From NCBI GenBank assembly GCA_902728285.1, contig CACVBU010000534.1, positions 2,302,583-2,366,582 of the forward strand: a DNA stretch of 64,000 bases, written 5' to 3'. The notes below the pieces were generated by a model. It did no database searches. It was not told the origin of the DNA and worked only from the letters and a program-made list of their open reading frames with translations. The stretch comes from Clytia hemisphaerica (Eukaryota; Cnidaria; Hydrozoa; Leptothecata; Clytiidae). This document shows positions 38,741 through 63,236 of the stretch, piece after piece (positions within the stretch are counted from its first letter, which is position 1; every line of letters begins with the position of its first letter). The position numbers were made by a program, and so were the translations under genes.

Positions 38741-39128
38741 GCTTTGTTTGTGTTTTTAAATGACTTTTAGTCTCTTGCTCCACAAATTTGTTCCATTGGC
38801 TTGGTTTAGACTTTCTTCAGCCTTTGTTTTGAAATTTAAGGCCCATCTACATTTTGTAATTTTAATTTCTGCCAAGACTTGCCTTTTTCTCTCTTCTTTT
38901 GTTTTAAATGTCTTCGAATGTATTTAACGATCGTATTTATTAATGACATTCGAATTCTTTTCAAAACAATTTCATTTCATAGAAAATAATATTTCAAAAG
39001 TAAATTAAAACATAAAAATCAAAAAGTTTGTGGACAACAACAACATTTAAAGGGCGATATATAGCATAAGAAAAAAAAATTAGTTCACTTCTTTCTTCTT
39101 ATAAAAATATTCAAGTCGTTGTTGCAAA
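38741..39128 (-). repeat. Interspersed repeat, copy C (truncated, inverted)
   Basis: Reverse complement of the 3' half of copies A and B, from CATTTAAAGGGCGATATATAG down to the CAAACAAAGC segment. Both outer termini are missing. Confidence 0.8.
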
Positions 39129-39139
39129 TTTTTTTTCCG

Positions 39140-39222
39140 TGATCGGTTAGAAGAATCTTTCATAGTTGGAAGATTCTTTTAACATTAGAAGAATCTTCAC
39201 TATTAAGGTTGGAAGAATCTCG
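39140..39222. repeat. GGAAGAATC repeats, site 1
   Basis: Four words of the type GGAAGAATCTT(T/C)A alternate with TTCACTATTAAGG. The same words in opposite orientation (GATTCTTCCAACCTT) are at 50,860-50,950. The two sites lie on either side of the zinc-finger/MULE block. Confidence 0.6.
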
Positions 39223-39867: not shown

Positions 39868-40589
39868 AAAGACCTTGCAATTCCCGATGATGAAGGTGTC
39901 CAGTTGTCCATTGGGGAAATGTCGAAATTTGCTGGTGGATTATGGAGGAGGAAGAGAGAAATGTAAGGCTAGGCTTTTTGCCATAGGCTTTAAAATTTAT
40001 GAAAAAGATGAAGATTTTTTATAAAAATAAAGTACTGATTGTGTTCACATTTCGATTTTCCAAATTTTGCTTTCATATTGTATAATCACTGTGATTTAAG
40101 ATTAAAAAAAGTAATAATAAAAGTCAGAAAAAAATAGAGAAAATTATAAACAAAGGGCCATAAAAATGGAAGAAAGTGTCACAATAAACTTGCTTTTAAT
40201 TTTACTAATAACAATAAACTTTTTTATTTACTGAAATTTTAGAACTGGAAAAAAGAAGCCAAGCAACCAGCAAACAATGATATGCTCGAAATGCGAAAAA
40301 GTGTTCACTCCACCAAAGTTTTTGAGGCATCATGTTAAAAGATGTAGGGAGGTGGAATGCGATGTATGTCACAAAACGTTTAAGAACTTGGTTTTGCTGG
40401 AAAAGCAGAAAATAACTCACGAAAAAAAAATTCAAGTGTGAATTGTGTCCGAAAGAGTTTGGCTTTATGAGTTCATTGAAGAAGCACAATTTAACACACG
40501 AGCCACCAAGTCTCAAATGTTCATAGTGCACTGGAATGTTCCGGACTGTTTCAAATTTGAACAGACACTTAAAAACTCATGCAGTATGA
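39868..40589 (+). pseudogene. C2H2 zinc-finger protein, four fingers, broken
   Basis: Exon 39,868-39,962 (KDLAIPDDEGVQLSIGEMSK) is joined in phase to exon 40,243-40,589 by a GT..AG intron. Fingers: ICSKCEKVFTPPKFLRHHVKRC (a C2HC variant), then CDVC...H, then in another frame CELCPKEFGFMSSLKKHNLTH and a last one ending SNLNRHLKTH. A run of nine A near 40,425 causes the frameshift after finger 2. A stop replaces a residue in finger 4 (CS*C). Such fingers bind DNA. It could be a host relic or part of a transposon; it converges on the MULE gene end 230 bp away. Confidence 0.65.
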
Positions 40590-41695
40590 ATGAAAATAGA
40601 TAAGTGTGTAAAAAAGCGGATATATCCTATATATAACAAAGTACAGCTAAATATAATTCAATATGAGACTATAAATTTGTGTATTTGCTGCGCCAACTCT
40701 CATTTATTAGAAATAAATGCAATGTCAAGCGATATAAAACTACTTTTGTTTCTTTATTTTCTGTGCAGACAAGAACTTAGCCTTAGAAGCCATGGTTCTG
40801 CCAGCTTTCTTTGAAGCTGCTACGTTATCAGCCACATTTTTTGAAAAGTTGTGCTGTCTCTTTTGTTAATGAAGGGGTTCTTCTTAACTGATGAGCCTTT
40901 TGCTTCTGGGTTTCTGTTACCATTGCCCGTTTTTCTGCATTTTACAGATTCTGGCTGATCGTATATTTTTCCTTGTCTTGCTCTCTTTATCAAAGATGTA
41001 GAAGTGATCTTCAAACTTGTGTTTTGACTGGTTGCAAAGGTATGAAAAGCACTGGACAGTCTTGAAGATTGACCTTTGTATTTTTTCAACTCTCTCACAA
41101 AATTTAATCACACCCCGTAATAGATTGCTATCCTGTGTTGCTTTGATAACTTTAAATAAAGTGGTATCCACTTTTTGCAGCTCATCCATAACCTCCTGCT
41201 TGTTTATGACATCAATAGATCTTCTCAAGTCGATGGGTTGGGCTAAAATAAATAAATGTAATTAATTTTGAGAACTGCTATCACTCAATTCCAGAAGAAG
41301 AAAAGACTAAAGTTTTTTTTTATCCAATTATTTAAGGTATGAAATCTTTTTCAAGAGTTTTTGGTAAGAATCCCTTCTACCCTTCTACCCCAGCGCAATA
41401 TATACTTAATGGTCGCTCTCTTATAAATAATTCAAATTCGAAACATACCCTGTTTGTCCTTGCACTTCAGTGAAGATGGTTCAGGTGATGACTCGACCTC
41501 TTGTGTTATATTTGGTTCTATTTGATCAATTTCATTCTGAGCCGTTTGCTCCGTCCAGTTATGCAAACCATCATAGTAATGTTCAGGCAAGTATTCCCCG
41601 ATAGCTAGGTAAGAGTACTCTCTTCTCTGACTTGATGAGAGATATGGAAGGAATGCTGATCCATTTTTGTTTATGTGGAGCCAGATAACATATTA

Positions 41696-41738
41696 GCGAG
41701 TTTATGTAAATTCGATTTCTAGTGCTTCGGCGAGTGCA
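41696..41738 (+). repeat. Harbinger left terminal inverted repeat
   Basis: 43 bp, matching the right end with about four mismatches; common parts include TATGTAAATT, GATTTCTAG and CGGCGAGTG. Beyond the repeat both ends carry a TACGTCAC- or TGACGTCAC-like word. Confidence 0.9.
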
Positions 41739-42001
41739 GGGGCTGGTGACGTCACAACGGCCTGGGTAAGCAAATTCGACTTATCGGGAAATCTTGGTGT
41801 CAATTTTGCTTCAGACGGTAAAAACAACAAAATTACTGTCTGCCTGTTTCGGTTAGGATCTAAACCCGAAAATGTTTATTTTCTCCGGGAAAGCTTGCAC
41901 CTTTGGCGAAAACATAAACAAAAATTTTTTTTCCTAGAAACCAGAAAGTGTTTTGTGCAGGTCCTGATCTGATCCAAAACTTTACTTTGTTTTGCACAAA
42001 A

Positions 42002-43249
42002 ATGGACAATTTTTTCGAAACTTTCAAACTGTAAGTATCATAATCATCATCTTTTAGTGATAAGAATTTTGTTTGTTTTTGCTTTCTGTTCTTTTTCTTA
42101 AATAAAGTCAAGTAGTGTTTTAAAAAAACATAGTTTGCCGTAAGAAAATGAATGAAATTAGCTTAATATCAATCTTTAAACATTTTTTTGATTATATATT
42201 TTTTCTTTTTTAGCTCTGCTTCAAAAGAAAATCAACCACCAACACCACCCCACTTCGAAATCATTACCACCACACCAACGTCATTAAAGAAATTCCAAAC
42301 AGTCACCCAACATGATGCCACCTGTCAATTTGACAAATCTTTTTACAAATTCTGCCAGGAAACCCTTCAATGTTCCATTTCGTTCCAATGTTCCTGTGTC
42401 TGTACCTTTTAGTCCATTGATTTTTCCTGCTGCCAATGTTATTGTTCCTGTTTGCCGTCCCTCTGTAGCTGTATCAACTGTTGCCCACCCTGCTGTGTTT
42501 TCAACCAGTCAAAGTAATGTTGTGGATATGTCTTGCTGTGTTTCGTCTCTGTCGTCATCATCGTTTGAAGTCAACAACAACAAACAACCATCATCAAAAC
42601 CTCCATCTCGATTTACATTTGATGAGCAGGTTTCCTTATGCAAAGAGGTCATGATGACAAATTTATTTTCTTTTCCAAAAGGTTCTCCAAAAAGAACACC
42701 TATTTGGGAAGAATTGACAAGCAAGATAAGATGTCTTTGACAATAGGAAGGCCCCTTAAACGTCGATTTATACGGAAACATTTTAATGAACTTTCGAGTG
42801 GGTTCAAAATAAAACAAAATTGACAAATTAAAGGTAGTGGCATGAATGACTCTACCCCAACAGAACTGGATGAATTATTGCAAAATTTGTGGGACATTGA
42901 AAATTACGGAAAACTTGAAAAAGAAGCATCGCAAGCAAAAGAAGAAAAGACAAAATTAAAGAGGAAAACATTGTGTGAAACTATTGGAGAGACAAAAACT
43001 AGAGAGGAAGCACCTAAGAAACCACGTCAGGAAAGATCAGACAAAAAGGTGGAAAATCGAGAGACTGTATTAAATTTTGTGAGGAATAAATCAGAGAGGG
43101 AACTAGATTTGCGAGAGAAGGAATTGGCCATCAAAGAGAGAGAGTTGGCTCTAAAAGAAGAACTGTACAGGCAAAACACATTCTTGATAAAGTCTATGCA
43201 ACAGACAATTGATGACCAGAAAGAAAATTATAGACAAACTTTTGAATAA
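42002..43249 (+). pseudogene. Harbinger Myb/SANT-like protein, spliced, broken
   Basis: Exon 1 (42,002-42,030) starts MDNFFETFK and its donor is GTAAGTATC. Exon 2 starts at 42,214 and continues in phase (LSASKENQPPTPPHFEII). A Ser/Pro/Val-rich stretch follows, then the Myb/SANT-like trihelix region (RFTFDEQVSLCKEVM, KRTPIWEELTSKI, then GRPLKRRFIRKHFNEL), the TELDELLQNLWDIEN motif and a long C-terminal coiled coil (REKELAIKERELALKEE). In Harbingers this protein helps the transposase enter the nucleus and bind the ends. Breaks: frame changes near 42,340 and 42,720 and a TGA near 42,823. Otherwise the length is normal for the family. Confidence 0.85.
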
Positions 43250-44375
43250 CAGAGAAGCTTGATTTTCCAGGCCCTCTATCTTCAAAATTTTGCCTTTAAT
43301 TTTCTTTCAGTTCATTAAGTCTGGATCTTTTTTTTAAACTTTTTATCGTTAACAAAACTTAAAAACAAAATTAAACAAATTATGTGTCTGCATCGACTAA
43401 ATCAGGATTGTGTTTTGTCTGCTGCTTTCAGACGTGATGTCTAACCTCTGTTCAACAAGTTTTTACTACACTCATACAAACGCCTGATTGCAAACAACTC
43501 TCGGCACGTTTTATCGCATCCAATCAGATTCTAGTATTTTGTCATTTTAATTGCTCTTGGGAATAACGTAAATGTTATTATTTTTGCCTTTTGATAACAA
43601 ACTATTTTTCTTGCCTTGGGACTACGAAAAGTCTTCGGCAAAGGCAATCATGTTTTTACTGAGTTTGTTTGCAACCAAGATAATAGTACGCATCTTTAAA
43701 TTTATTCTATTTACTATGTATTTAAATTTGTATTTATTTTAAATCGATTTATGTATATGTTATTGAATTGTACAAGGTAGAAAGAAATTATTATTTTATT
43801 AATTTTAAGAATTTAAGAATTATTTATTGTTAAATTGATATATTTATGATATGGATTATAGTTAAGATCATTTAAGTCTTGATATTTTGTTGTAATTTAA
43901 GGTAAAAGATATCATTTTTATAAGCCTGAAACTATATTTTTAAAAATTCAAAATATCTATTGTTTGATTTCAAATATTTTAGTAGAAGAATACTGTAATG
44001 TAGTACAGTACGAAAAGAAACTTAATCAATCAATATCTTGTAATCTGCTTATCTCTTATCCCTGAACCTTTGATTATTCGAATAGTATTTGTTTTCCTAA
44101 AATTTAGACCATTAAAGGATCATGTACTTTTCTAAATTATGAAAAATGTTAGTAGATTTTTTGTAAAATCTTACTTTTTCTTACCTGGGGCTCTTGGAAA
44201 ATGTTTCTTCTAAATCTGTAAGGTGCCATTCATCTAATTGATACCAGTGACTGCTAGGGAAAAGGGGAAAGGGGGGCATGGGAAAGATAAGGGGGGCAAG
44301 TAAGATTTGTTTTTTTAAGAGATTTGTGGTTTTAAAAAAAACCGTTTTGTATATCCATGATGTCACCCCTTCCAC
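43250..44375. other. Non-coding space between the two convergent Harbinger genes
   Basis: Very AT-rich, with AATAAA-like words for 3' ends on both strands. No repeat or gene is seen. Confidence 0.5.
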
Positions 44376-44825
44376 TTATTGTCGTTGTTGAGGAGGATGT
44401 GGTGGTTGAGGTGGCTGCTGTGGTGGATGAGGCGGCTGTTGTGGTGGTTGAGGCAGTTGTTGTGGTGGTTGAGGCGGCTGTTGTGGTGGTTGAAGTGGTT
44501 GAGGCGGTTGTTGTGGTGGTTGAGGTGGCTGTGGGCGTAGATAGTCAATCAACGTTGGTGGTTGGCAATTAAAATAGTTGAACGTGTTCGAGCCATAGAG
44601 GATAGTGTGGAGGTTTGTCAAAAGAGCTGAAACAACATATTGCTTGGCAACAGGTGAACCACTCTTTTGCATGGCCTAGTAAAAAATCAAAAAAGCCTTT
44701 TAGAGAAAAGTTCAAAAACCTGAATACTATATATAAAATATTCAGTCCATTGAAAACCAGAAAAATGTTTAAATCTTAATTAAAAGGTTTTGAATATTGT
44801 ATGTCCTGTATGAATAAAGACTACT

Positions 44826-46326
44826 AGCCGGTACCCGGCGTCGCACGCCGGTTAAGCTGTAGCTGAACGCACTAATAAAAGTCCTTTGGATGTTGAGGCT
44901 AGCTTAAAAAAACGATCAAATGAACAAAAAGATATCTTCAAAGTTTGACTCTAACCCTCGAAAGCATCCAGCGAGGTCCTTTTTTTAAACATCTGTTTCC
45001 CAGGCATAGCCTTCCTGGAAAATTTGATCTGTTGGCCAAAAATTTCAAAAATCTTATTCCTAGAAATGGAGATCTGTTTCTCCTCAAAACCTAAATTTTT
45101 AATCTCAAAGTATCTTCCCTAGAAAATTTGATCTGTTTTCACAAATTTCAGAATTAAAATTTTGATATGTTCTCCCAAGCTTATAAGAAATAGGATATCT
45201 GTTTCCCTCTCCTGGAAATGTTCATCTGTTTCCTTTGCTTTTTGTGATTGATATCTGTTTTCCCCCAGAAAGTTCAATCTGTTTCCAATGCAATATTATT
45301 TTTTGGAAACAGATATCTGTTTCCCAATTTATTATGTCATCTCCTAGAAATATTGATCTGTTTCTCTCTGATGACGTCATCAGCTGGAGTGGGGAAACAG
45401 ATAGCTATAAGGAAAAGGTCTTTCCTAGAAAGTCGGATCTGTTTCCCCATTTTTCAAAAAACGCTCTCTCCTGAAAAAGGCAAACAGATATATTTCGGGG
45501 AAATGGGCTCGTTGGCTACTTCTGAACCCTTCTGAGATCTTTTTCTCGCTTCGCTCGCATTAATTAAATACGCCGTCCAGTTTTCGACTATTTGAGAAAA
45601 TCTCATGCTAAAGAGGAGTGAAATGTAGAAATGACAATTCTTCAGGAAAAAGCGGGAAATCCACAAAGAATAATGCAACTTTGTTTTTATCAGATTTAAA
45701 AAGATAAATAATAAGTCAATTCTAAATTGCTTTTTTAAAACCCTTGTCATAACTTTCCACGTGTAAAATGACGTACACAGTTTTTAACAGTATCAACCAC
45801 TTAAATGTTTTTATATGAAGAAAGAGATGGACTTATTTCTTCTCTTGCTTTTTATCGCCCTTTGAATTCTGTTATTGTTCGACAAACTTTAATTTTTATG
45901 TTTTGATTTACATTTGAAATGTTCTTTTCTATAAAAGAAACTTGTTTTGTTTTGAAAAGAATTCGAATGTCATTAATAAATACGATCGTTAACAGGTTAA
46001 AATACATTCGAAAACATTTCAAACAAAAGAAAAGAGAAAAACAGGATCGGGGAAAGCTGGGGAGAAATTAAAATTACTAAATGTAGATGGCCCTTAAATT
46101 TCAAAACAAAGGCTGAATAAAGTCTAAACAGAGGCTAGGCTCTATCCGATCTGTCAATCAAAACAAACTTATCGAGAACAAAACATTGCTTGCGAAATCG
46201 AAAGGCGCGAATCCAATAGAACAAATTTGTGGAGCAAGAGACTAAAAGTCATAATTTTAAAACACAAACAAAGCGAAAACGAAAGTGGTGACACAAAGAC
46301 ACAAAGCACCGCTATTAATATATAGA
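44826..46326 (+). repeat. Interspersed repeat, copy B, in the Harbinger intron
   Basis: Begins TAGCCGGTACCCGGCG and ends TTAATATATAGAT. It matches copy A along its ends and middle but also contains a minisatellite (44,985-45,490) that copy A lacks. It takes up most of the transposase intron. Its last base is only about 6 bp from the splice donor, so the donor context now reads GTATAATC followed by the repeat end. No long reading frame of its own. Confidence 0.85.
44985..45490. repeat. GATCTGTTT minisatellite
   Basis: About 14 words GATCTGTTT or ATATCTGTTT at 25-45 bp spacing, most preceded by CCTAGAAA or CTGGAAA. It is the reverse-complement counterpart of the AACAGATC array at 1,085-1,640. 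Two words occur inverted (GGAAACAGAT), so parts can fold back. Confidence 0.75.
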
Positions 46327-47485
46327 TTATACCTTATGGTCAGTAAATTTGAACTTCTCTATGACTTGACCAAAAGCCCACTCCACAGTCACTCTTGCCC
46401 TTGACATGTCCCGATTATATATCGCCTGGTTGTTGGCTGGATCTCTGAAACCAGTTTGTAAATGGGCACTAAACGGGTACCCTCCATCTCCATAAATGCA
46501 TAGGAGCTCACCATTACTGCCATAAGAAAATTGTTGTAGCTGTTGCAGCAGGCCAGACTGCCACAGCATGTTAGAGTCATGTCGAGCTCCTTCTATAGGG
46601 CCAAAGAAATTAGCTATAAGACCATTGGCAGCGGTCACAGCTTGATACTTGAGTGCATGTTTTCTTTTATGCCCATTGTAGAACAACCTTTGGTCCTCCT
46701 GGGGTCTGGCGATACCCCTGACCGTGCCATCGACAAACCCCCAGCAGTTGTCCAAAGGAGCCCCTTTCGTATGCACACGTTCTGCGTATAAAGAAAGGTT
46801 TTCCCGGGACTACCAAGGTTGCTCAAACGATTGAAGGAGCCAACTGTAGCGATCGTAAAAATGACTCAGTATGAAATTGAACATGCTACAAAGGTGAGGC
46901 TCTGACCTGCCAAACTTTGGTAACAGATCGGAGTACCTGCATGGAAATGCAAGTCTTCGACACAACAAACAAAAGAGCTCAACACTACTAGTGTGAATGT
47001 AGGCTGGCCTAGGCAAAACCACCTCATTGTCATCAACCCCCAGCATGGCAGCAATCCTTAGCACATCCCTCTTCCGGAATCTGCAGTCCACCCAGCATTC
47101 TTTATCACTCCACAAGTTAAAATTGAAGTTCCCCCACCTAGCACCATAGCCATTACCAACTGCACCAACAAAATTTACCTCTGTGGCATAAGCCAGCATG
47201 AGGTATTCTTCATCAGAAATAACCCCATTGACATAGGCATTTGCCAGTTCAGTGCCAACATCTCTTCCAACCATGATAACCTAATTAAAAATTTTAACTT
47301 ACTGTTTTCAATATCGAAAGAATAAAGTCTCAAAGAAAAAGCTTTGAGGGCTTCTTTATTCTTTTGACATTGGCAACGAAGCAAACAAACCCTAGCAAAA
47401 CTAAAAAAAAACACAGACGGCAAAAACAACATCGCGCTTGCTCGAGGGCTCAATGTCACCTTTGGATCGTGTTTTCGTGACGTAG

Positions 47486-47528
47486 TCACTCGCCGTAGCG
47501 CTAGAAATCAAATTTACATAATCTCGCT
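47486..47528 (-). repeat. Harbinger right terminal inverted repeat
   Basis: Reads on the minus strand AGCGAGATTATGTAAATTTG and on. It pairs with the left end over 43 bp. The transposase starts about 210 bp inside. Confidence 0.9.
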
Positions 47529-50432
47529 ATTGATGTTTACAGACAGCGCCAGATTGCCCTACATGACATTCACACACTCCTAGGTCAGTATCCACGTAAT
47601 ATCTCTTCTCAGGATCTTCTTCACTGCTTATCAAATAGGAAGAATTGTTGACAATTTCAAGACTATTGATCATTTCTGTCTGCTTTCGTTTAATTTTGAA
47701 ACCAGCTCCATCTCCTTTCTCTTTAGAACGTCCCATAAAACGTCTGCTGTAGATACCTATACTTAGAATCAAAATAAAGATTTACCTGCTAATTAATTTG
47801 ATTGTAATAGTTGCTTTAATGAACTGAGCATCTTAGGGTAGCTCTAAATAAAGGTTAAGATTGAAAATATCCTTTACGATAGACTTTTGGTTCCATGCTG
47901 ATAAAAAGTGTATGAAAGTGTTATGAAATACATGTAACCTGATTGAAATATAAACTAATTAATGAATTTCCTTTGCTATGTTAATCAGCTTTGTTTTATA
48001 ATGATCTTCTAGTTCATTCACAATTTTATCTAGCAGGCCATTGATATTGATCTCCTCGGTTCTGTTTAGTACGGAATCTTTTAATACAAGAAATTGAGCT
48101 TCGACCATATTATTCGTATTGTGCCCACGAACGCTATATTCCTTTCTAAAACAAGAAAGTACATTCAAAATAAAAAAATGGGAATGGAATTTTACCTGTT
48201 TTTATTATCCCTAGGAGGACTGGAATTAAATTTTGTGATTTATTTACAACCCTTAGAAGAGTTATGAAGATTTTGAAGGGACCATTAAGAGCGGCACATC
48301 AAACTTAACCGTACCCCCTGGTTCTAAAATACAACTAATTAATTATTGGAGCTAAAAACAGTAGGTTCTTTAAAAGATAAATACCTGTATAAAAAACACC
48401 ATGCCTCTTTCAGGTCATAGACATCATCAAGGTACGAAATCAAATTGATGTACTTGCTGACTATTTCCGAGCTTTTTAAGTCATCAAATGCACTTTGTAA
48501 ATCATCCACATCCTCAGTTATAAACACAAGTTATTTAAATCTCATCATAATTTCTGAATCATAATGAAGAAAAAAATCATATTTACTTCTCACTTTCTTC
48601 AGTTAGATAAGGTATAAGGTTGTAATTCAGCTATAGCAGCTCAAAACATCTAGAGTATTGGGGTGGTATCTTATATCCTGATTCTTAGAAATTTTGATTT
48701 TTGGCAAAAAAGTTCTTATAGTATCTTTCTTTGTGGGTAAAAATATTTATAAAACCCTTTCTATACATATGTTCTATCAGTTGAAGCAATGCAATGGTTT
48801 TTATCAAAGAGCCAATGTCACACTTGTTGGAGAAGGTGGAAAACACATAGAAGAAGACAAGCATTAGGCCATACATACTTTAGGGCATTCTTAGCTCTGA
48901 GCAGATGTCGGTCATGAAGACTTCTGGGCCCCTTACAGGATGCCCAAAAAAAGCTGTGTCAGGCAGGATTAACTTTAACATTTCCAGAGCTTTAATCGGG
49001 GTGTCAGTTGTCTCGTCGCTCGTGATAATTACAGCCAATGGTAGAGCTCCAACTGGACTATGAGTCACCATGAAGAAAAATCGAAGGTTATACTCTTCCA
49101 AGCCACCAGTTGAATCAAAGAAGGAAAGCTCTGAAGATGATCGTACCTGAAAAAGAAAATAAAGGAAATCAAACATAACGAAACCATAAAAGATTCAGTG
49201 TTTATCATTTTACAGTATTACCCGATACTCTCAAAAATTTCTAACTTGTAAATCTAAAAAGGATCTTCAACAACTTCAACAACACATCCAACATTATTTC
49301 TGGGAGCTATACACCTCATACCTTTTCATGAATCCTTAGCATAGGTGGAGTTAACATGACAAATATCAAAGCATCATTCTCTTCCTAAATTCTTGTAAGG
49401 CAAATTTCTATTTATTATCCAATTCTGTCAACTTCTGTATGCGTTCTGAAATTGAAATTTATCAATTCTATAAGATTTAACAAATTCAAAACTGCATTCA
49501 CTAAAACCCTTGCCTAGGCCCCTTATGGTAAAATGCAAACCTTTGCAAACAAATCTATCAGTATCGATGAATCAAATAGAAGATTATTTAACAGAACATG
49601 ATCCACCTTTAAAGTGTTGGAATATTGATTTCATATTTCGTGTACCATACTTGCTTTCATTACATGTTTTGAACAAAAGGTTGAAATCACTTCTTCTGGG
49701 CATACGTGATCTATCTGACATTGCAATATGAAATTCAATATCACTATTGGAATTTGACTTTGTTTCACTGATAAGCTCTTTGTAAGCCAGACTTGGTGTA
49801 TAACCTTTCTCAAATGATTGTAAAACTTTTGCTTTGGTAATGGAGTGTATGTCACTGAATGTCAGTGTTTGAAGAGATGTGGTGGAGTGGTTGTGAGTCC
49901 ATTGTATTTCATCATTTCAGCATTTCATTTTATAAAGTCATTCGTTGGTGCTCTGCTATGTCTGATAATCATACTATAAGGGCAGTTATTGTTCTTCATT
50001 CTTTTGGAAGGATTTGATTTCAAAATTCTATGCATATCAAAAGTGCTTTCATAAAACATTTTAAGTTGACATCTGTAGTATTCATATGAAGAAAATTCGT
50101 TTTTATCGGACAGTTCTTTGCGATGCTGGATTCGCAATGTCTCTTTTGATTTGCAGCAGTATTCCTCAACAAAGTCCTTTGTCGAGCAGAAATTACACTC
50201 TATGAGAGCTTTGAAGCTGTTCGTTGATCCAATGATGTAGATGATCCAATGATCCAAAATGTTGTAGTCCACGATGGAAAAAAGGTCAGCTAAGTTTTTC
50301 TCAAGCTCAAGCTTACTGACAGTTAATGAAGAAGAGAAACGATTTTTCAAATCTGAAACCCGCTTCAAAATTGCAACATTGGAAACCATATTTGTTTTGG
50401 CAATTAGAAATGTTCCCAAAAATATCTTAAGG

Positions 50433-50813
50433 CCAAAGAAAAAAAAATGTCTTGTTTTCGGAAATGCGGGTGATGAAAAAAAAACTCACCCGGCCGGCCG
50501 CAAAATATTTTTCTTTTACATTTTTGGATTTTTCTTACACCCTTGATTTTTCTATTTAAGGAGAAATACAAAACTTATATGTGTGTTTGCTTCGTTCTTT
50601 GATTTTCTTTGTAGGAATAGAGACTTTTTATATTTGCAAAAAACATAAGCAACCAGGTTTCCAAGGCTTGAGCCCTCAAATTAGCCAAATATTCAGTTCG
50701 AAAAAAAAAAAATTTCTTCCACTTCGCAAATTTTTTTTTTTTTTGCGGCCCGTTGACCGTTCAAAAAAGAAGTTCACCCGGCCGATTTCCGGAAACAAGA
50801 CATTTTTTTTTGG
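50433..50813. repeat. ~380-bp MITE next to the MULE start
   Basis: The left end CCAAAGAAAAAAAAATGTC continues with TTGTTTTCGG. The right end is its complement (CCGGAAACAAGACATT, then T-run, GG). Arms are about 30 bp. Internal CACCCGGCCG words recur near both ends. No clear target duplication. Confidence 0.7.
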
Positions 50814-50859
50814 ACTTACCAGGCTTAAATATCGGCAGAACCAAAGTCAACTGAAGTCA

Positions 50860-50950
50860 AAGATTCTTCCAAGCTTAATAGTGGAGATTCTTCCAACCTT
50901 TGAAGATTCTTCCGAGCTTAATAGTGAAGATTCTTCCAACCTTCAAAGAT
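50860..50950. repeat. GATTCTTCCAACCTT repeats, site 2
   Basis: Four words GATTCTTCC(A/G) with AAGCTTAATAGTG(G/A)A between them, the inverse of the repeats at 39,140-39,222. Confidence 0.6.
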
Positions 50951-50954
50951 TGTG

Positions 50955-51690
50955 GGAATACTCTCTGATCTCTTGATGGTATTTTATACCTAGAGATAGA
51001 GATCCTTCAGATTTCCAGAATTTATTCACTTTTCTCCAGATGGCATCTCTTGGCCTAGATAATTTTGATCTCCTGATGGTATTTTATACCTAGAGATATT
51101 CCAGATTTCTAGACTTTATTCAATTTTCTCTAGATGGCGTCAATTGGCCTAGAGAATTCTGATCTCCTGCTGCAGTTAACTTTGTATTGCCTATATTACT
51201 GAAATAAATATGTGCCAAGTGTTGTTTGTTGTCTTTCATAATCGTTTAAGAATTAAAAAAGTCTTGTCTGACATACAACTTTCTTTGAACTGTAATTTTT
51301 GCGTGCAAAGTTGGGTAATTTTCAATTATTGTTTATATTCATCTAAATGTTAATTTGTTTGTTTCTGCAACTAAAACAAAAATACCATGGCTGTCATCAG
51401 TATTGTCCCTCATAATTCAACCATCATGAGTCTTTTGACACAGGACGATCGGGATAGTGACGGGAATCTAGAGAGGTTATTTGTGAAAATTGGTCAGCTT
51501 TGGTCCATCAAACCGGATGCAACAGGGCTGGCCTACTTTGAAGTTGGTAGACCCGTGATAATAAGGATGACAGAGGACGAAATAGATATTCCGGACAATG
51601 ACGAATAGCCCTGTTTGCTGTATGTAGTCTTATAGTCTTGTAGGCTTCATCTTGATAGAGTAAAATAAACCAGAGGAGATAACGGTGGAA
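50955..51690 (+). repeat. Repeat with ~92-bp tandem head and small ORF, copy 2
   Basis: Colinear with 28,315-29,040: the tandem head (50,960-51,165) then the body, ending AAACCAGAGGAGATAACGGT. The copies differ at perhaps one base in fifteen plus small indels. In this copy the small ORF is open. Confidence 0.8.
51387..51608 (+). CDS. Small repeat-borne ORF of 73 residues
   Basis: Starts MAVISIVPHNSTIMSLLTQD and ends EDEIDIPDNDE, an acidic tail. The middle (LFVKIGQLWSIKPDATGLAYF) looks like a folded protein segment. In the copy at 28,786 the same frame has a shift and a 45-bp deletion but keeps the ends. Retained similarity between copies supports a former gene, probably a fragment of an element-encoded protein. 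Function unknown. Confidence 0.4.
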   Translation: MAVISIVPHNSTIMSLLTQDDRDSDGNLERLFVKIGQLWSIKPDATGLAYFEVGRPVIIRMTEDEIDIPDNDE

Positions 51691-52430
51691 GATATATGTT
51701 AAATTTGTTAATTAATTTTTTGAAGTTCTCTTCTCTCTACAAGATGACGAAACTACCCTCCAAATTTAAGGTCAATATCTTAACCACATCAAAAGTTATT
51801 GGATTTTGAATTTGAAAAACCATCAAAAAGTGTATATCTCAGTGCCATTTCATATGCCATTTCTGGGCTAAATTGTCAACCTCAAATGTCTAAAAAGGTG
51901 CTATTCTAACGGAACCAAAATCTCAACATCTCTGGGACCGCTTATCATTAGGAGGTGTATGACCCCTCATTTTTTTCTTTTTTGAAGCTCTATAAGATGA
52001 ACTAGGTTTGATTGCCACCAGAATAGTTTCAATTTGACCCTGGAATGGCTACCATGTTTCTTAAAAGTGTGTTTCTTAAAATAAAATAAAAACCTGTAGT
52101 TTTAACAGCCTGTACATTTTACATCATATCATTTTATCACAGGAAACATATTTATATATCTGAAGAAGCTAATTAAATTCAGAAACAACGCATGTTAAGC
52201 TAAACATAAAAAACATTAAAACCAAAAAAGAAATATCACCAACTCAAAAAGACAAGGAAAAGACAAACTCTCAACTAAAACAAACAAGTGATACGGACCT
52301 ACCTGGTTATGCTTTTAACAAATATAATTGATATCTACGTGAGCATGACCGTTAAACAATCATTCAGAACACAAATAGTGACGATCTATTAAAATTAGTC
52401 GTTTGTTTCTTATAAAAAATACGTTTAGAA
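51691..52430. other. No gene seen
   Basis: AT-rich spacer between repeats; no supported feature. Confidence 0.4.
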
Positions 52431-53425
52431 ACCAAAATTTCATGCTCTTGAAATAATCTTTCATATTCAAGACTTCGTGAGCAAAAAAAAACATCTTTCT
52501 CATTAAAAAATTGAGTAATTTGGTTAAGAACATTGATGTATGATTATTAATAGTGATTCTTATAAATAAAGATGCGTTTTTTTAGCTGAAAAATTCTTTT
52601 TTTACAAAAATCTGCTTGAGCCATCTTTTACCTACTTTCATGTAAAAAATCAGAAAAAAACAATCATCCAATTTTTCACAAAGTCCAAAAAACCCTTTTT
52701 TTAGCCGTTTTTAGGCCCAAATTTGCCCAAAAACATTTTTTTTCGAAAATCGGGCTCCGTCACATTTCAGGGTTTAAAGTTATGCATCTTTGTGCAAAAA
52801 ATCATAAAGAATGAAAGAGCCAATCTCGAGAAAAGCTAATACCTAACCTAAGTAATTGATAATGTGCTTATAAAAAAATATCGAATTTGGCCAGTTTTTC
52901 TATAAAAACACGGTAAGCAACCAAAATTTCATGTCTAAGCACACATACTCTCTAAAAGTAAGCCCTCATGAGCAAAAAAAACATCTATGTCATAAAAAAA
53001 TTGAGTAATTTGACTAAGAACATTGATCTATGCTTATTAATAGTGATTCTTATAGATAAATATGCGTTTTTTGAGCCAACAAATTTTTTTTGCAAAAATC
53101 TGCTTGAGCCATCTTTTACCTATGATGGTACCCTACTTTCATACAAAAAATTAGAAAAAATTAATGATCCAATTTTTCACAAAGTCTAAAAAACCCGTTT
53201 TTTAGCCGTTTTTTGGCCCGAATTGGCCCAAAAAATTTTTTTTTCGAAAATCGGGCTCCGTCACATTTTGGCCACCACCATTTTGCACCTTTGTACCAAA
53301 AATCAAAAGACTCCTATGATTCAATCCTGAGAAAAGTTGGTAACAGACGAACGAACGAACGAACGGACGGACGAACGGACAAACACAGGTTAATTTATAG
53401 GACCTCCACCGGGGTAGGTCCAAAA
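52431..53425. repeat. Tandem 487-bp (3 x ~160 bp) repeat with hairpin terminus, copy 2
   Basis: AACCAAAATTTCATG starts at 52,431 and again at 52,918, so two units of 487 bp are in tandem. Each contains TTTCGAAAATCGGGCTCC and a GTCACATTT word, like the ~160-bp units at 10.1-10.8 kb. The array ends with (ACGA/ACGG)n near 53,345-53,390, GGTTAATTTATAGG and the hairpin GGACCTCCACCGGGGTAGGTCC in two halves, the same terminus as copy 1. Confidence 0.75.
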
Positions 53426-54870
53426 ATATAAGGTGTGATCATGAGTAAGCATGCCCTGCTACTTAAGTCACCCGTCATCTAACCAAAAGAGAAGATATTA
53501 GGAATGAAAGAAGCAATATTGAAAAGTTTGAAAAGTTGCCCTAGAACCCGGTTAGGCGTGCCGTATCCGAGTGGTCGTACGACTGAAAGGGAAGAAGGAA
53601 ATAATGAATTAGCCTGGATATCCAAGCTCAATATTTTAGAAAAAACTAAATTTACCTCAATATACAAAGTTCCAAAATTATAGAGCTTGGTCTCCCTAAA
53701 GAATGAAAGTGCAAACCCATGTTTCCAAAACTTTCCCTAGCCAACCCAGGGCAGCAAAACAGAAATTAATAAAAGCAGCCTTACAATATCTAAAACCAAA
53801 ACATCCAAAGATTACGCCAGAGTCCATGAACAAGTTTGCATGCATTATCATGACCAACTATCAGACCATGTTTTCTTAGAAAATGAACTTGCCTCAGTTT
53901 TCTTCTTTTTCATGTTTTCATGTAACAGAAAGCTCTATCTTCACTAGCAAGTGGAGGACTATCCTATTTTTGCTTCAGAATTGCTCCGCGTCGTGTAGAT
54001 TGGTCCTTGCGGCTTTAGCGAAGTGAGCGCAAGCAAGCGGACTGCATTCTCATATGGAGAATGCAAATCGCTCTAGGGAGACCAGGCCGTAAACCAAAAC
54101 ATAAAATATAAAAAACTAGACTGTGAAATAGTTTACAGCATGGATATCCTGGCTAATGACGAATTAAAGTGCAGATGCCTTGAATTTGGAACCATGGATG
54201 TCAATATCTTAGGATGGAATCACTGTTGACAACTTTGAATTTTTCAAATGCTTTTCATGATAGCTATACATGGATGAAGTATGATTTTTTCACATAAACA
54301 CATGTTATATCGATACGAATGAACTTCTTTAACCAAATTAACTAGAGTGCGTCGCTACCTTAATGTAGTTGATCTTTGGACAAACACTGTATTTAGGGAG
54401 CTCCCAAGGAACATCTATTCAATGAACTTTTTGTTCCCAAAGGAACTAAATGAATTGTTCACTGTTTGAGAGAGAGAGTGTACATAATGCAAATGAATTA
54501 ATCATTCTTTTCTTGTGCTTTTACGAATAGTTCCTTGTCTAGGGAATAAAGTGTTCATAGTGTGTAGGAATTTAGTGTCCTCTCATTCTTATTGTGTGTT
54601 GGTTACAAAAACGGGTATCATTTTCTTTTAACTAAGATCAATTTGATCTTTTTATTAACTCAAATTGTTCTCTACCATGGGAATTTTAATTTCCAATCGT
54701 ACCTTATTGGTGGTATCTGCTATGCACGCAGGTTTCTCATTGGGCATTTTTTAAAGGGGGTTTGAGAGATGCTTCTCCCTTTTCTAATTCAATGTAAATT
54801 TTATACCCCCTTAACAGCGTTGAAGTTGTAAATTACATAAAAAGGGAAAACTTTGCTCCTTTCATTCACG
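53426..54870. other. Spacer with repeat fragments, no gene
   Basis: Holds the segment 53,540-53,600 shared with 36,728-36,800 and the hairpin repeat copy 3. Near 53,990-54,080 lies a GC-richer stretch ending GGAGACCAGGCCGTAAACC, similar to 20,150-20,170. No coding frame is supported. The Crypton-like gene may have its promoter in 54,600-54,870. Confidence 0.4.
53610..53690 (+). repeat. ~85-bp hairpin repeat, copy 3
   Basis: Starts TAGCCTGGATATCCAAGCTC and ends CCAAAATTATAGAGCTTGG. Same arrangement as copy 1. Confidence 0.65.
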
Positions 54871-56913
54871 ATGCGTCGCTCAAGGCGACTGCAAGTCAAC
54901 TGGAAGACTTTAGTTGGTTCCGCTCATGGAAAAAGAACGCTAAAATTACGTCCAAATGGGCAAAACCTTTACACTTGTTCAATAAAACTTTGTTTACATG
55001 GAGATTGCAAAAGTTGCCGCGGATTGAGAAAACACATAAACGTGAAGCACCCATGGTATTATTATTTTGATGAACAACCCGAGGTTAAACGTGAAGACAT
55101 GGTTGGCACATTTAGAGTTACAAAACGAGCTTGGACTGCCGGTAAGCCGTCTTTTTCACTCGATAAAGGTATATATAGGAGAGTCCCGGCAAATTAAAAA
55201 ACGATCAATGAAATATTTTATGCAGGCCATGGGAAACAATGAAAATGACATTGAGCTGACAAACGAATTTGTTGATTGCTGTCTGTCATCAGCTTCAATT
55301 TTTATTTCATTTTTGAAAACTTTAGAGTCTAGTTGGAAGGTTGGTCCTTCAGGTGCATTGAACTACGTGAAAGCTCTTAGTGACTTTATCGATTTTAGAA
55401 AGGCAAACAGTGTATCTGATAATATTCTACGTTGCTTTACTTTTGTAGAGGTGTATCTAAGGAGAGCAACTGAAAACCTTCGTAAAAGAAAGAACCTTGA
55501 TTGTAATCGTAACCTCCATTTGGAAAGTCTAATTGCTAGAAATAGTTGGGCCACGTTAGAAGACATGGAACAAGTCATACCTCATCACATTGGACAGTTC
55601 AAAACGATCATCCAAAAGTCTGCCAATAGTGAAGAAGCTAGACTTTTAACAAAAGGCGAACTGGTATTTTGCATTCGATTCATTACCACTTTATTGTTCC
55701 TGAGAGTGAAATGTTCGAGACCTATGACTTATCAATTTCTTACCGTCTGAATGGTAAACAAAGCAAGAGGGAATGATGGATTTGTAGACCAGAAAGAGTT
55801 TAAAATTGCATCAAGGTATCGATATTTAATCAAAATAGATCCATTATAATTGATACACCGAATCAAAATTTTCTTAATAAAAGCTATTATAGATGATTAC
55901 ATATCATCATCATGAAAGTAAAAGTCAACAAATGTATTTGTGTTGAATATGATGAAAAACAGAAAAAACACAATCATTCTCTTGTCTCCCGAATAGACGT
56001 CCCCCCGCTAATTGTTAAATGAAAAAAAATCCATCCCCCCGCTCTTATTAAGATCCGCTAATTAAATTTGAACAGTTTAATATTTTATTACAGTGTAGAT
56101 AGACCTTAAACTTGTTAAAATCTTCCTTTTTTAAGTATTGGTTCTTATTTTACGTGTTCAATTGTTAAAGTTTCTTTCTTTGTTGTTGAAAATGATATCA
56201 GTTTAAAAAAATTCTGTCTTCGAATTACCCCCCCCCTCTTATTCCACCCCCCCCCCCCACTCTTTGTTTTATATTTTCAGGTACATTTTTGACACTTTAA
56301 TCTTATCGGACGACACAATTGAAATAATCGACTTGTATTTGGAACACATGAGACCTCGTTTAAATCCGCAATGTGATTTCCTACTGCTCTCAACAAACGG
56401 CACTCAATTTCAGTCACTGACTTCTGCTATGACAATTCTCGTTCGTCAAGCAATTGGCAAACACATCAATCCAACACGGTACAGGCAAATAATCGAAACG
56501 GAAAGCAGCGAACGACTCAATCTAGAAGAGCAACATTTTATTACTGAGGATCAAAAGCACAGTTCGACAGTTGCAAAGGTACATTACAAGAAGACGCAAT
56601 CCAGAATCGTTGCAGTTGAAGGAAAGAAATGCATGGACAAGAGACAAAGGAAGCGCGAACGGACGTTAACAAAAACCTGGTAAGCATGTTCAATAACATC
56701 TCTTGCTCATTCGACAACGAGGTTCTGAGCCAGAGTCAGCGTATAATAGAGGGAGGAGAACCTAGTCTTAGTGGTTCAAGTTCTCACATCAATCAGACGA
56801 CGAATCAAACCGAGAGAGATCCGTATCAGCCAATAAGAGAATCACACACAGTGGAAGGTGAAGATATTGTCAGCAAACAGCTCTCGTCATGTTTTAGATG
56901 TACCAACAGATAA
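54871..56913 (+). pseudogene. Crypton-like tyrosine recombinase with zinc finger, broken
   Basis: Starts MRRSRRLQVNWKTLVG. A C2H2-type finger follows (CLHGDCKSCRGLRKHI...KHPWYYYFDEQP). After a frame change near 55,160 a long helical region (GNNENDIELTNEFVDCCL, SGALNYVKALSDFIDFRK) leads to the catalytic domain: LRVKCSRPMTYQFLTV (first Arg), NPTRYRQIIETES (second Arg), and EDQKHSSTVAKVHYKK with the candidate nucleophile Tyr. Intron 55,816-56,280 has GT..AG ends and keeps the phase. The open frames after 56,629 (ending near 56,913) give a Ser-rich tail in a shifted frame. Breaks: frameshift near 55,160, TGA near 55,748, frameshift near 56,670. Cryptons move by recombination with no TIRs; none were looked for successfully. 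Host domesticated relatives are an alternative but the breaks argue against function. Confidence 0.65.
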
Positions 56914-56974
56914 TGTTGCCGTCAAAAGAGAAGTTGCTGAACAATAAGTTAATAAGAGACAAACAAAGAATGTG

Positions 56975-57370
56975 AAATTTACTCACTGCAAAAAATAATT
57001 TCTTAAAGAAAAAGAATTATCTTATCTTAAGAAATCCCAAGAAAATATTTCTTTTCATTAGAATAGAAATATTGATTTAAGAAAAAGTACGTCACAGTTA
57101 ATAAGCTTTCTTAAGACAGTTTAAAGTATTTAAGAAAAATATCGACTTAAGAAAATTATTAATAAAAAGAGAAAGATTTTCTTAGTCTTTCTTAACCTAA
57201 TAAATGAATTAGAAAGATTTTCTTAATCTTACTTAATTTAAGAAAACAGATTTTTTTTTCTTGGTTTTCTTAACGTAAGAAAATAGATTTTCTGTTTTTT
57301 TTTTGGTTTTCTTGATGTAAGAAAATTTTACTCCTCTGATTTGAAATTTTCTTAATGTAAGAATTCTTTA
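56975..57370. repeat. Cluster of TTAAGAAA words
   Basis: About 20 occurrences of TTAAGAAA, TTTCTTAA or near forms in 400 bp, some joined as the palindrome TTTCTTAAGA. Because the word is nearly self-complementary the region can fold many ways. It follows the recombinase gene directly and may be its 3' end or a small foldback element. Confidence 0.6.
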
Positions 57371-58712
57371 TTAAAGCAAAAAGGTTTCTAGCCGCACGCT
57401 CATTAGTTTTTTCTTTACGGTTGTTAGTGTCCGCGCGACAAGCTAGAAAATACACATGCAATCATTAGTCTAATCAAAACTTACCGTGCGGTTGATCATT
57501 GGTTTTAAGGTATATTTATTACGTAATTTCTACTGAACTACTTAATTATTCAATAGAGGGCGTCCTCTTTTAAAAAGGTCTATTATACCCCCTTCTCAAA
57601 GACCCGGTAGAATCTTTTTAGCCAGTGGGTGGAAAAGACGGACTGAAATTAGATGGGGATCGATATTCCCTTATTCTTTATGACAGGGGATTTAGTTTCA
57701 AAGTCAGAAAATTCAGTGGGGATGGAAAAAATAGTATAATATTTTACAGTGAAAATTGGTTTATTTGATTATTTCCTTTGGGACGAAAATTTGGGTATAA
57801 TCTTCCACCGAGGACGGTATTTTGGCCAATTTTTCAGTAAGAAGGGTTCCCAGTCGGTCTGAGAGAAGGGGTGTAATTATGGAAATTAGAATTCCTAAGT
57901 TTGGCGGGATACAGATTTTAGTGTTTTTCCCTCTCCCGACCAAACACCATTTAATCCCCAGGCAGTTAGCATCCCGCCATATCAGTAATTTCATTACGTT
58001 ATCTTTCTGCACTTGGAGTCCCTACGTCACCATACACCATAATGGCGTCGTTTTTGAAAAATTGGTCTTCAGTGAAAATTTTCCCTCTATTGAAAAAACA
58101 TATATGGGAGTGATTTGAAATTAGTCATTGTTAAAATCGGTTAACATAATCCAAGGTTTCTTCAAAATCATAATCTTGAAAACGCTGATATATAAATACC
58201 CTAGCCATACAAAGTCGATAATAGCTATAATAATATAGTATGAAAACAAAATAATTTAGCCTAAATTATTTGAAAATATTCGTAGCATGTGAGAGAAAAG
58301 TCTTTGACAAAACTTTTGCATGTAATGAATTTCTCCCGACAATCACTTTTCAAGATGTAGCAAAAAGAGCAGTGACCATAGACAAATCCTAGATTATGGG
58401 GTAAAAACATGATTGGTGAAATAAAGTTTGAGTAGTTGTACCTACAATACTATGAGAAAGAGTGTTGATGCCCCCACCAGGCTGGTACCAAAACCAAAAA
58501 GAGCCTAACGAATAGAGCAGAATTTTGAATGCGAATGATCTTTGGCAAACGGTAAACTTAGCGACATAATGATTATCCAACTTAAACATCGATATGAAAA
58601 TAATGGGAAAACATAGCGAAAGTTTGTTACGTGCTATACGCTGCCTACACACGCCAGTAAGAGAGAGAACGTTCTTAAGTCAAGAATGCTATATCAAAAA
58701 CTATAATAGTAA
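57371..58712. other. No gene seen
   Basis: Moderately AT-rich. Frames of 80-100 residues overlap on both strands without domains. No repeat stands out. Confidence 0.4.
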
Positions 58713-60509
58713 CTATTTCATTAACGGGTTATTCCCACAAATATGTTCACTGATAATATCGCAAAGGTCATATTTTAAAGGAACAAATCGATCATCAGCT
58801 TGGTTTTTTACAACTTGATAAATATTGTAGTCTAAGAGACCAGTAAACGGTTTCATTTGCTCTTGACTGAATTCAGGGGATACTTGGTATCCGACAAAGT
58901 CGTTATCAAAACGAAATGTCTCTAACATACTTAACACAAATATAGGAACTTTTGCGCATATGATTTTTACAAGCTTCCCAAACATTGGGAGCTCTGTATT
59001 GGAATCTGCGTCTACTGCGAGGAAACAATGCCCAGCTATGTATTTGGTACCATTTAAAGTTATCCAGTTCAGGTAGCTCGAATGTACTGGAAAATCATCA
59101 AATGGGTGTTTTTTTGCGAATCAGGTCCATCTCTGCAGGTGGAATAGACTTTCCAGGACCATCCTCTCGTGAAGAACAGAGAAATGAACTCGTGGCTGTA
59201 TGTTTTAGGTACCTGTTCGCAAGTGATGTTTCCAAATGAGAAAAATTACAAAAAGGTAAGAAGGACTTGAATGTTTTATGCATAGCTTCGAAGCGCATAC
59301 ACGAGTAGCGTACTGGAGGGCCAAAGCGTGGAATAAGGGAAGGTGTTTCAAGTAAGTAATGATGCTTCGGAATCAAATTTTCTTGAGGAAAGATACTTTT
59401 GAAGACACTGCAATGTTCTTCAATGATTTGACTCAAGTATCCAATAGTGCCAAATGTAAATAATAGGGATCTATGTTAAAAATTGATTTTTTGAATCATA
59501 AACTGATTACCCCTTCAAAATGTGCCAAAACATGTATAATTTCAGAAAAAGAAGAAAAAATTCGGTAATGGCCACGCCCATCTCGGAATATCACTGCTAG
59601 GTTGCCTAAAAAAAGAATTCTCAAAAACCTATCAAGTTACCCCTCATTTGAAAGGTAATTTAATGTAGATTAAGAAAAACATCATGACTATGCAACATAA
59701 ATGAAGTGATAAGGTTGTAGAGTACATTATATTGCTCTTGAAAGAGGCTTTTTTAGTGTAATCCTGTAATGTCTTAAAAGTTCATACTTTCGTAATTAAT
59801 TCATACTTTCATTAAATTTTTTGGGAGACCTACATAAAATAAACATAAGTGCTTATTTTCTACTGATATTATACATTTTGAATCTACAGGATCATTATAA
59901 AAATTTAAAAACTAAGCAAGGATAAAGGAGCTATTTGACAAATAAGAAATTTCAAGAACAGTCGAAGTTAGAACGTCCGTCAACCTCTCAAACCTTATAC
60001 TGAACACATGTTGTATAGACTTTAGCATAAAAGGATTTCATCTAAAAGATATTTTACAGAGTTTGAAGGGTACTTCCTTTGTATTTAGATTTTAAATCTA
60101 ATAAATTTAAATTGAAATATTTTTGACAACATTTTATCCTCGCAGTTCCAAGATATTGGACTTTAGTCGCAATTACTTGGTCGACAGATGTCTTATTTAT
60201 TTCAGCTTTTTCAGGAATGTCCAGTTGTGTCCGCTTTTATCAGTTCGTATCATGTATGAAACTGTTTAATGGTTGAAACTTTTCTACTACTCCTAAATGC
60301 CATTTTGTCTCATTACCCTCGTGCTAAAAGGCGATATCACAAGTTTTGTCTTTCTGTACTGCTTCATCCCCTTGAGCTTGTAAAGGAGAATTGAGTTCCA
60401 GTTTTAGTGATTTACTATCATCCCTCTTACCCACAATTCCATGCATAACATTTCTAAAATCTCCAATAGTTATCTAAGGGCAACAACGTGCAGTTAAGAG
60501 CTCAATTTT

Positions 60510-60870
60510 TCAACATACTCTTTCGTGGAGAGGTTGCGATAATCTTCTCTCAAACGAAAGACTGCAACTGTTCGCTTGAGAGACAAGACATGCATGTAAT
60601 TTTAGCATATTATACATCCTTTTGTTCTTAAGTTTATCGTCCAAGTTTGTTTCTACATACTTCTTAATTTCTTCTTCTGAGGTAAATGGGTCTGGGATAC
60701 TTTCCTTTTTTAAAGTCTCCAATAATGAGAACTTTTTTTACTCTTCACTCAAACTTGCCTTTTCTTTTTCAGGAAAGGCTTCAGTTTTCTGCTGCTTGAC
60801 TTTATCAGCCCATTCAAGTTTAATTACCTTGACTTCTTTGGAGGGTTTTATAAATTTTTTACGTTATTAG
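60510..60870 (-). pseudogene. Orphan coding fragment inside the above gene's gap
   Basis: Reads EEEIKKYVETNLDDKLKNKR and MYNMLKLHACLVSQANSCSL at 60,722-60,510. A less clear Lys/Glu-rich segment precedes it, with a stop near 60,740. It does not fit between the neighbouring exon sequences, so it is probably from another element inserted in the intron, or an exon of a different gene. Not recognised. Confidence 0.3.
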
Positions 60871-63236
60871 TTTTAAGTTATTTGGATTTGCTTGCTCAAG
60901 AATGTCATCTTTTTATTGAGTACCAGCTCTTGAAAAATACTGCTATTCTATGACAAAAAGTCTGATTTACTCAACTCTGTATGATTTTTTTGAAAGTATT
61001 GATCAAAGTATAACGATTTTGATAGGGAAATGATTGTAAGAGCTTAATAAACTCATCATGTGTTTTTAGAGAAAAAATCACAAAATCATCATTTTTTAGC
61101 AGGCATAACTTTTTATAACCTCATTTTTAGCCACTACTTATGACCTTTTTTGGAATCTGCATGAAATTCTCTTTCCAATGAGGGGTCACATGACTATCTT
61201 TTGACAAAGAAAAAAATCACTCCTAGGGCGGCCCCTTTGAGCTGTCGGTGGACCCTAAAAGCCCAGGTAGGGAAACCAAAAATGGTTCCTACCCTAAAAA
61301 TTGATGTTTTTTCAAGTTTTTTTAACCTATGGCACATTTTAAGAGGGTAATCAGCATGATCTGTTCCTAACATAAATCCCTATAAATAAAGGCGAAAAAG
61401 CCAATGCAACAATCCTTGAAAGTGATGATAAGAATTGAAAATAGACATTATCCACTGGAAGAAAGACATCCAGTAGATAAGGAATAATTTTTAAAAGGAT
61501 TCGAGCATTTTCTGCACTGTACTTAATTTTTCGATCATCTGTGGTGAAAATACTTGACTTCAACGCCTCGGGCTTACTCTTTTTATCAGAATAAGAAAAT
61601 TCGAAAGTTTGCAATAAGTAATTGAATTCTTCCAATGTGAAAAATTTGTCTTTAATTAAGGCTTCTAAACAAAGTTTTATTTCATAAGGTACAACGCCTT
61701 CTAACAGATCGTGCATAATATCGTTGGGTAATTGCTTTGTAACATCAAAATCATTCAAAAATGACAAAGCTGATCTACCAATAATACCGTAATTAACTTG
61801 AATTTGATCTTTTGCGGTACCATTTGGTAGTGTTTCAATAATGTGACAAACTCTGCAATGTTCTTGTTTTGATCGATTAACAAACAAGGTTGGTTTCAAA
61901 TTCCCTCGTATGTCTTCGGCAGTGGCAAAACAACGACGACATTTACGTAGGGCAAAACCGATGCCAACTTTGAAACCGCCAATTTGATGTTGGCCTTCAT
62001 TATCTCCAATACACAAAATAACATTTCCAAAGCAAAGCTGCTCTTTGCCATTTATAGTAAAAAAATATCCTCGAAAAAGCTTATCCATATCATCCAGAAA
62101 TGGTTTCATGACAGCCTCAAAACCATATTTATTCAGCTTAATCTTGTTTACTGATATTAACAAATTAATTGCACTGAGTTTGGATCGATACTTAGGAGGA
62201 ATGTTGCACAGGGTCCAGTAAAAATTGACCATATTGTGTTTAGTATTTCTGTTGCCAATTGGATTACACAATCCAACCCCATCTTGGAAAAGTAAAATAG
62301 TGAAAACAGGTTCTTCCCTATCAGAATATTGGGAGTTCTTAAAAAAGGATCCATCAAAAATGTCATAAAAAACACCTTCCCTGAAAACTTAGGCTTTTGT
62401 AATAATACTGTGGCCATTTCGTCATTCGATAACAAATGTTGAATCTTATCAATTATCGATATGTAAACACATGTCTCAGGAACTTCTTTCAATTCTAACT
62501 CTTTTGTTTTTGGTGATTGCACTTGTTTCAATATCTTTCCAAGTTCAACCTCTATTGGCTTTGTAAAAATAATATGCTCTTCAAGGTATTTATCTTGCAT
62601 GTACTTGGTGTGTAGACCAAAAAATGGATTAGAATATATTTGGGTTGATTCACAAACTGCAGCAATTGTTGCTTCATCTAATGATAGTTTTTTCATTTTA
62701 TCACATACATCTTCAGATACCAAATCGACAGTTGAAGCAATGATCTTAGAATTTCTTTTAATGATTTCGTCTACAACAACCTGAAAACAATACAAATAAT
62801 AGTAAACTGAAGCTATCAAAAACAAAGATAATTTTCTCCAGTTTTCTCCATATTTTGCTCAAGTACATGAATTGAACCTTTTTGAATTCCTGTTGATAAG
62901 TTTTTAATCATCCAGCAAAATATTATAATACATAGGAGTTATTATTGTTACCGTTGTTTCGGCTTACTTTCATAACCTCCAGAACACAGCCCTTTCTCGT
63001 CATCAATATAATTAAAGTAAAACTCAAAACAAACCTTATTAACCAGATTAATGATATGTATAAAAAATCATGAAGTGATGTCATAGGCATACACTAATGA
63101 GATTCCTCACATATTATTAATAATAAATTTGAGAGCCTGAAAACCATCCAGCATTGTATAAATTTGGGTTATATCAAGTTTATTCTATCATTTGGCACAA
63201 TTTATTTTTTAATCCACCACATGACTTTATTCTAGT

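Follow-up and report, generated by a model that had tools for sequence, protein, structure and literature searches.

A Harbinger transposon and a Helitron carrying a further DNA transposon nested within a two-gene MULE of Clytia hemisphaerica

The MULE and its zinc-finger gene

The 64,000-bp stretch of the Clytia hemisphaerica genome analysed here (the window, part of contig C374) contains four transposable elements stacked by three insertions. The outermost is a Mutator-like element (MULE; 39124 to ~50953, transposase on the minus strand), one exon of which holds a Harbinger transposon (41695–47528, minus strand), which in turn holds in the intron of its transposase gene a Helitron (44824–46326, minus strand) with a 566-bp DNA transposon, element X, inside it. 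Positions 40000–51500 were read closely, repeats and reading frames were mapped, and pieces of every layer were searched against the genome (417 Mb, 951 contigs); as these searches score best candidates only, all copy counts below are lower bounds. A preliminary description of the locus had proposed a three-level nesting of a repeat, "repeat B", in a Harbinger intron in a MULE gene. This nesting is borne out by a MULE copy on contig C915 without the Harbinger and a Harbinger copy on C339 without repeat B, the positions being corrected to those given above; element X, the assignment of repeat B to the Helitrons, the true left terminus of the MULE, its C2H2 zinc-finger gene and the support from empty sites go beyond that description.

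The MULE transposase gene consists of an N-terminal coding region (49587–50389), a DDE exon with a broken frame (48770–49201), a SWIM-like exon divided into a part upstream (47528–47781) and a part downstream (41446–41694) of the Harbinger, and a C-terminal coding region (40743–41261), all on the minus strand and delimited by reading frames or by the match to the C915 copy, the only other close copy found in the genome searches. The coding stretches between 40743 and 50389 are ~94–98% similar to that copy, and the long alignments including non-coding parts show ~90–97%. In the C915 copy the MULE transposase domain PF10551 is recognised with 34.2 bits (cut-off 27.6), and the N-terminal region matches FAR1 with 12.7 bits, far under the cut-off of 28.1. 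Pfam searches with single MULE exons of the window returned nothing relevant, the DDE exon alone having no match to the MULE domain, and the SWIM-like exon, named by eye, had no Pfam match in either copy.

Arrays of AGAAGAATCTT-like sub-repeats lie in inverted orientation at the ends of both the window MULE and the C915 copy, forming terminal inverted repeats (TIRs) of which ~97 bp are common to the copies. The left one occupies 39124–39220 (plus strand) in the window; of the right one only the inner part is left (50857–50953, minus strand), as the array stops at ~50953 and the C915 array runs on. Copies on C654, C735 and C802, all with unrelated flanks, share the left terminus at 39124, so the window MULE is mobile DNA and not simply a gene of the host. 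The flanks of the C915 copy differ from those of the window on each corresponding side, which makes this copy a separate locus and rules it out as the other allele; a single 34-nt match between a C915 flank elsewhere and window positions 52053–52086 does not affect this. Three window coding stretches were checked for gaps (the SWIM-like one being left out) and all differ in length from their C915 counterparts; five of the gaps have lengths not divisible by three and there is one stop, so the present copy is a pseudogene, as it had been called in the preliminary description. The C915 MULE has an insert of its own of ~360 bp (locus L048, ~4603–4967), absent from the window, with TAC on either side and inverted ends (ATGTTTTT...AAAACAT).

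Tail to tail with the transposase gene lies a C2H2 zinc-finger gene (40238–40589, plus strand), which is broken in the window and open in C915, where it has a 120-codon frame (L048:5812–6171, counted as open codons irrespective of a start codon) with four fingers. A genome search with this gene gave 12 matches, three of them belonging to C915 and to the window. Among the other nine, five (on C661, C188, C386, C853 and C281) lie 1.7–5.2 kb from a MULE transposase match, all in tail-to-tail orientation, and four (C508, C782, C931 and C797) are without a neighbouring match in the transposase search. The C2H2 proteins of the five further paired loci are 36–48% identical, and the recurrence of the pair rules out a chance neighbour or a one-off capture; the gene looks like a real partner that has long accompanied this MULE lineage. 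Its frame is open at C188 and C661 and interrupted by stops in the C386 and C281 copies. In pairwise comparisons of C915, C188 and C661 the proportion of non-synonymous differences (pN) is 0.35–0.40 against a proportion of synonymous differences (pS) of 0.75–0.95, with synonymous sites saturated. The pair has persisted while the C2H2 proteins diverged this far, and for this reason we lean, with some reserve, towards an old and functionally maintained partner that is probably needed for transposition, for example by binding the AGAAGAATCTT array of the TIRs, rather than a captured host fragment.

The Harbinger and the Helitron in its intron

The Harbinger lies in the SWIM-like exon of the MULE. 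Its TIRs (41695–41736 and 47487–47528) are 42–43 nt long and 91% matched, and they are bordered by the target-site duplication ATT on the left (41692–41694) and on the right (47529–47531). When the window was compared with C915 by blastn, the segment 41441–41694 directly abutted 47528–50425, the overlap consisting of the duplicated ATT and one chance base, and the genome searches gave the same junction; the uncut site in C915 contains a single ATT, and the reading frame is open across the insertion point. The MULE site is thus empty in the one other close copy found. A 3-bp duplication was present in four of the five fetched Harbinger copies with both ends (the window, C339, C276 and C577), the triplets observed being ATT, AAT and TGT; the duplication in C577 falls in a GT microsatellite, and the ends of the C94 copy are eroded.

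The transposase gene of the Harbinger includes an exon with the DDE_Tnp_4 domain (46333–47280, minus strand; PF13359, 74 bits in the window and 77 bits in C339, cut-off 24.8) and, as judged from reading frames and comparison with C339, a downstream exon with a proline/glutamine-rich tail (44376–44675, minus strand). The frame contains one in-frame stop in the window and is open in C339. The second open reading frame (ORF; 42288–43249, plus strand) is in two pieces in the window and forms a single frame of 372 aa in C339; the protein matched no Pfam family above the cut-off, a Myb/SANT-like domain having been sought. The element had been described as complete, which holds for its ends, whereas its genes are damaged. 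A third Harbinger copy, on C577 (L083), is split by a different insert of ~1.3 kb and has lost much of the transposase part.

The two transposase exons are separated by 1657 bp in the window as opposed to 166 bp in C339, the closest Harbinger copy, in which the intron has GT...AG ends. In two distant relatives, on C409 (L019) and C193 (L024), one exon runs directly into the other, in support of the earlier reading of this segment as an intron. Repeat B entered the intron 6 nt from the 5′ splice site, leaving the GT donor intact, and C339 is continuous from window position 44823 to 46327 with the intron uncut. On C212, two distant copies that match at ~78% over the exon end have the splice donor followed by an intron free of Helitron sequence, so that, with C409 and C193, there are four distant copies besides C339 in which repeat B is absent at the exon end. 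C577 is no control for this absence because it lacks this stretch of the Harbinger.

Repeat B starts with TCTATATATTAATAG and ends with a hairpin followed by CTAG, and comparison with the empty site in C339 places its entry between A and T, with no duplication. Among ten copies aligned at their ends, which include the window but not L070, whose 3′ part is split, a 3′ flanking T and the CTAG end are found in all ten, the TC start in nine (L068 being the exception) and a preceding A in five; the hairpin is shortened in L069. The window copy is too short for a Rep/helicase gene, and by these structural features repeat B is classified as a non-autonomous Helitron.

Element X occupies 44959–45524 (minus strand) and has a 6-bp target-site duplication, AGGGTT in the Helitron orientation. 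Of ten Helitron loci compared, it is present in the window and C888 and absent from the other eight (L064–L071), in which Helitron positions 1–793 are joined to position 1368 onward by 4–5 nt, which rules out X as native Helitron sequence. The whole 1503 bp of Helitron and X were recovered in single alignments on C888 (97.7%) and C106 (85.8%), and X lies at the same left junction on C617, where the 5′ part of the Helitron is lost or displaced, and on C435, where X is cut short; on C248 fragments of the two are arranged differently. The Helitron and X have spread as one unit. Judged by eye, X has imperfect TIRs, and matching 6-bp flanking repeats are found in the window and at ten of 13 loci, with mismatches at L007 and L072 and a truncation at L077. 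More than 30 copies at 91–95% are among the matches listed. X also inserts independently: on C236 (L082) a reversed copy, bordered by its own 6-bp duplication, separates two parts of another Helitron copy. At the present locus X most likely arrived together with the Helitron. The element also carries spaced AAACAGAT/TTTCTAGGA-like motifs.

Order of the insertions and alternative explanations

Nesting and empty sites together give the order MULE, Harbinger and then Helitron with X, which is that of the preliminary description, and we hold with high confidence that the stack was built by independent insertions in this order. The MULE in its turn may have landed in an older element, since a Helitron-family fragment (38741–39123, plus strand) abuts its left terminus and all 31 matches listed for this flank, the window itself excluded, stop at the MULE boundary. 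This suggests insertion into an older Helitron copy, although no Helitron match to the other half of that fragment was found in window positions 46327–64000. The two-gene MULE would accordingly have settled at the locus, probably within the older Helitron; the Harbinger would then have entered its SWIM-like exon with duplication of ATT; and later a non-autonomous Helitron already carrying X would have entered the short Harbinger intron between A and T, with no target duplication. The mechanisms, presumably DDE cut-and-paste for some layers and rolling-circle transposition for others, are suggested by the element ends and by what is known of the families.

The MULE and the Harbinger could instead have been amplified together as one chimeric unit, in which case the same Harbinger junction would recur across MULE copies. 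A compound of this type does exist one level down, namely the Helitron with X, and none was found for the MULE and the Harbinger: the C915 MULE is free of the Harbinger, no Harbinger sequence was found in four locus identifiers of that MULE, no MULE was found in the flanks of the C339 Harbinger, and there is no MULE sequence in 20 Harbinger locus identifiers, which correspond to ~15 places on 14 contigs examined mostly with 1.5-kb flanks and exclude L020 and eight weak matches without a locus. Joint amplification is therefore very improbable.

The independent insertions are also preferred to an assembly artefact joining pieces of different loci. The junctions do rest on assembled sequence, but those of the Harbinger and X have matching duplications (ATT and AGGGTT), the Helitron occupies an A/T site, and in C915 the frame of the MULE runs across a single ATT, so a misassembly is hardly credible. 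A slightly better, though still slight, chance is left for a Harbinger insertion older than the split of the two MULE copies, followed in C915 by a precise excision that left one ATT. Transposases of the Harbinger type can excise cleanly; this history, however, requires an extra event, and C915 also lacks the insertion of an element resembling a miniature inverted-repeat transposable element (MITE) in the 5′ region of the window MULE, in which respect it is like an untouched copy, despite carrying its own ~360-bp insert at another position.

Several points weigh against the order of independent insertions. One copy each supplies the empty MULE site and the close empty Harbinger site; excision of Harbinger elements can be precise, and C915 could have had its site restored; all junctions come from the assembly; and the MULE target duplication, for which 8–11 bp would be expected, was not found, the right end being lost in the window and none being recognised by eye at C915. 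Divergence cannot order the two outer layers either, because the Kimura two-parameter (K2P) distances of the MULE pair (0.054, 0.024 and 0.047 for three stretches) and the Harbinger pair (0.045 and 0.032) overlap, and the changes private to the Harbinger of the window (98 of 2711 sites, 3.6%) exceed half of the MULE distance (~2.5%). Ordering the MULE and the Harbinger by divergence alone is thereby ruled out. The Helitron with X has 11 private changes in 1490 sites and is the youngest by this measure too. In the three-way comparison of Harbinger copies, the figure of 192 sites private to C577 is too high, probably because of misalignment at the 1.3-kb insert and the missing stretch, and was not used.

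Other repeats lie in and around the stack. The MITE-like element (50428–50811) is 89–93% similar to the three nearly full-length copies with which it was compared (the flanks of two of these are identical), and its target duplication is probably 3 bp, TTA or TAA. Another repeat, containing a tandem of ~94–100 bp, is present in two copies (81%), at 50964–51694 and 28371–29042, the former adjoining the truncated right end of the MULE. A further Helitron copy of the X-free type is found in pieces at 24782–25639, with 78–92% similarity.

Comparison with known systems

Both animal and plant genomes commonly contain nested elements of this type. Transposons inserted into one another have been described from a range of genomes and serve to order insertions, for example with the tool REANNOTATE (PMC2672092), and the present stack resembles such clusters in that the order is taken from nesting, with nothing different in kind. 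What sets this stack apart from nested clusters generally is its membership, a Harbinger and an X-bearing Helitron within a MULE, and the backing of the insertions by duplications or empty sites. In kind the arrangement is ordinary; it is well resolved, and the locus illustrates cleanly how three transposon superfamilies can be put in order with the backing of empty sites and not by divergence alone.

Non-autonomous Helitrons start with TC, end with a 3′ hairpin and CTAG, are flanked by T on the 3′ side and make no duplication. The same features are found here, the difference being one subfamily that spread with a 566-bp DNA transposon aboard, a case of a compound transposon spreading as a unit. 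The Harbinger agrees with the PIF/Harbinger superfamily (PMC9179366) in the DDE transposase, the TIRs (42–43 nt here), the 3-bp duplications and the second ORF; it differs in that this ORF has no Pfam match above the cut-off and in the duplications ATT, AAT and TGT.

The least ordinary feature is the C2H2 gene lying tail to tail with the MULE transposase. In maize MuDR the genes mudrA and mudrB are in convergent orientation. A published survey lists mudrB as coding for a protein of unknown function (PMC6446971); the likeness to the present MULE lies in the tail-to-tail second gene and the difference in its being a C2H2 zinc-finger gene. Mutyl of Yarrowia, as described in the same survey, is a two-ORF MULE listed with a C2H2 finger, and mutB is said to bind DNA, its orientation relative to the transposase being given both as the same and as antisense (PMC6446971); by description only, it shares the two ORFs and the C2H2 finger with the element studied here. 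A like arrangement is that of the Spectre MULEs of arthropods, described from one complete aphid element, which possess a transposase, a separate C2H2 zinc-finger ORF and TIRs of similar length, 74 bp (PMC6446971), as compared with ~97 bp common to the copies here, so the MULE with a C2H2 gene is of a known kind. The transposase of the present element differs in having, by eye, a SWIM-like finger as well, the likeness being one of description. A MULE with a conserved C2H2 partner would extend the Spectre arrangement, and the C2H2 protein, if indeed a maintained partner, would be a testable candidate accessory factor.

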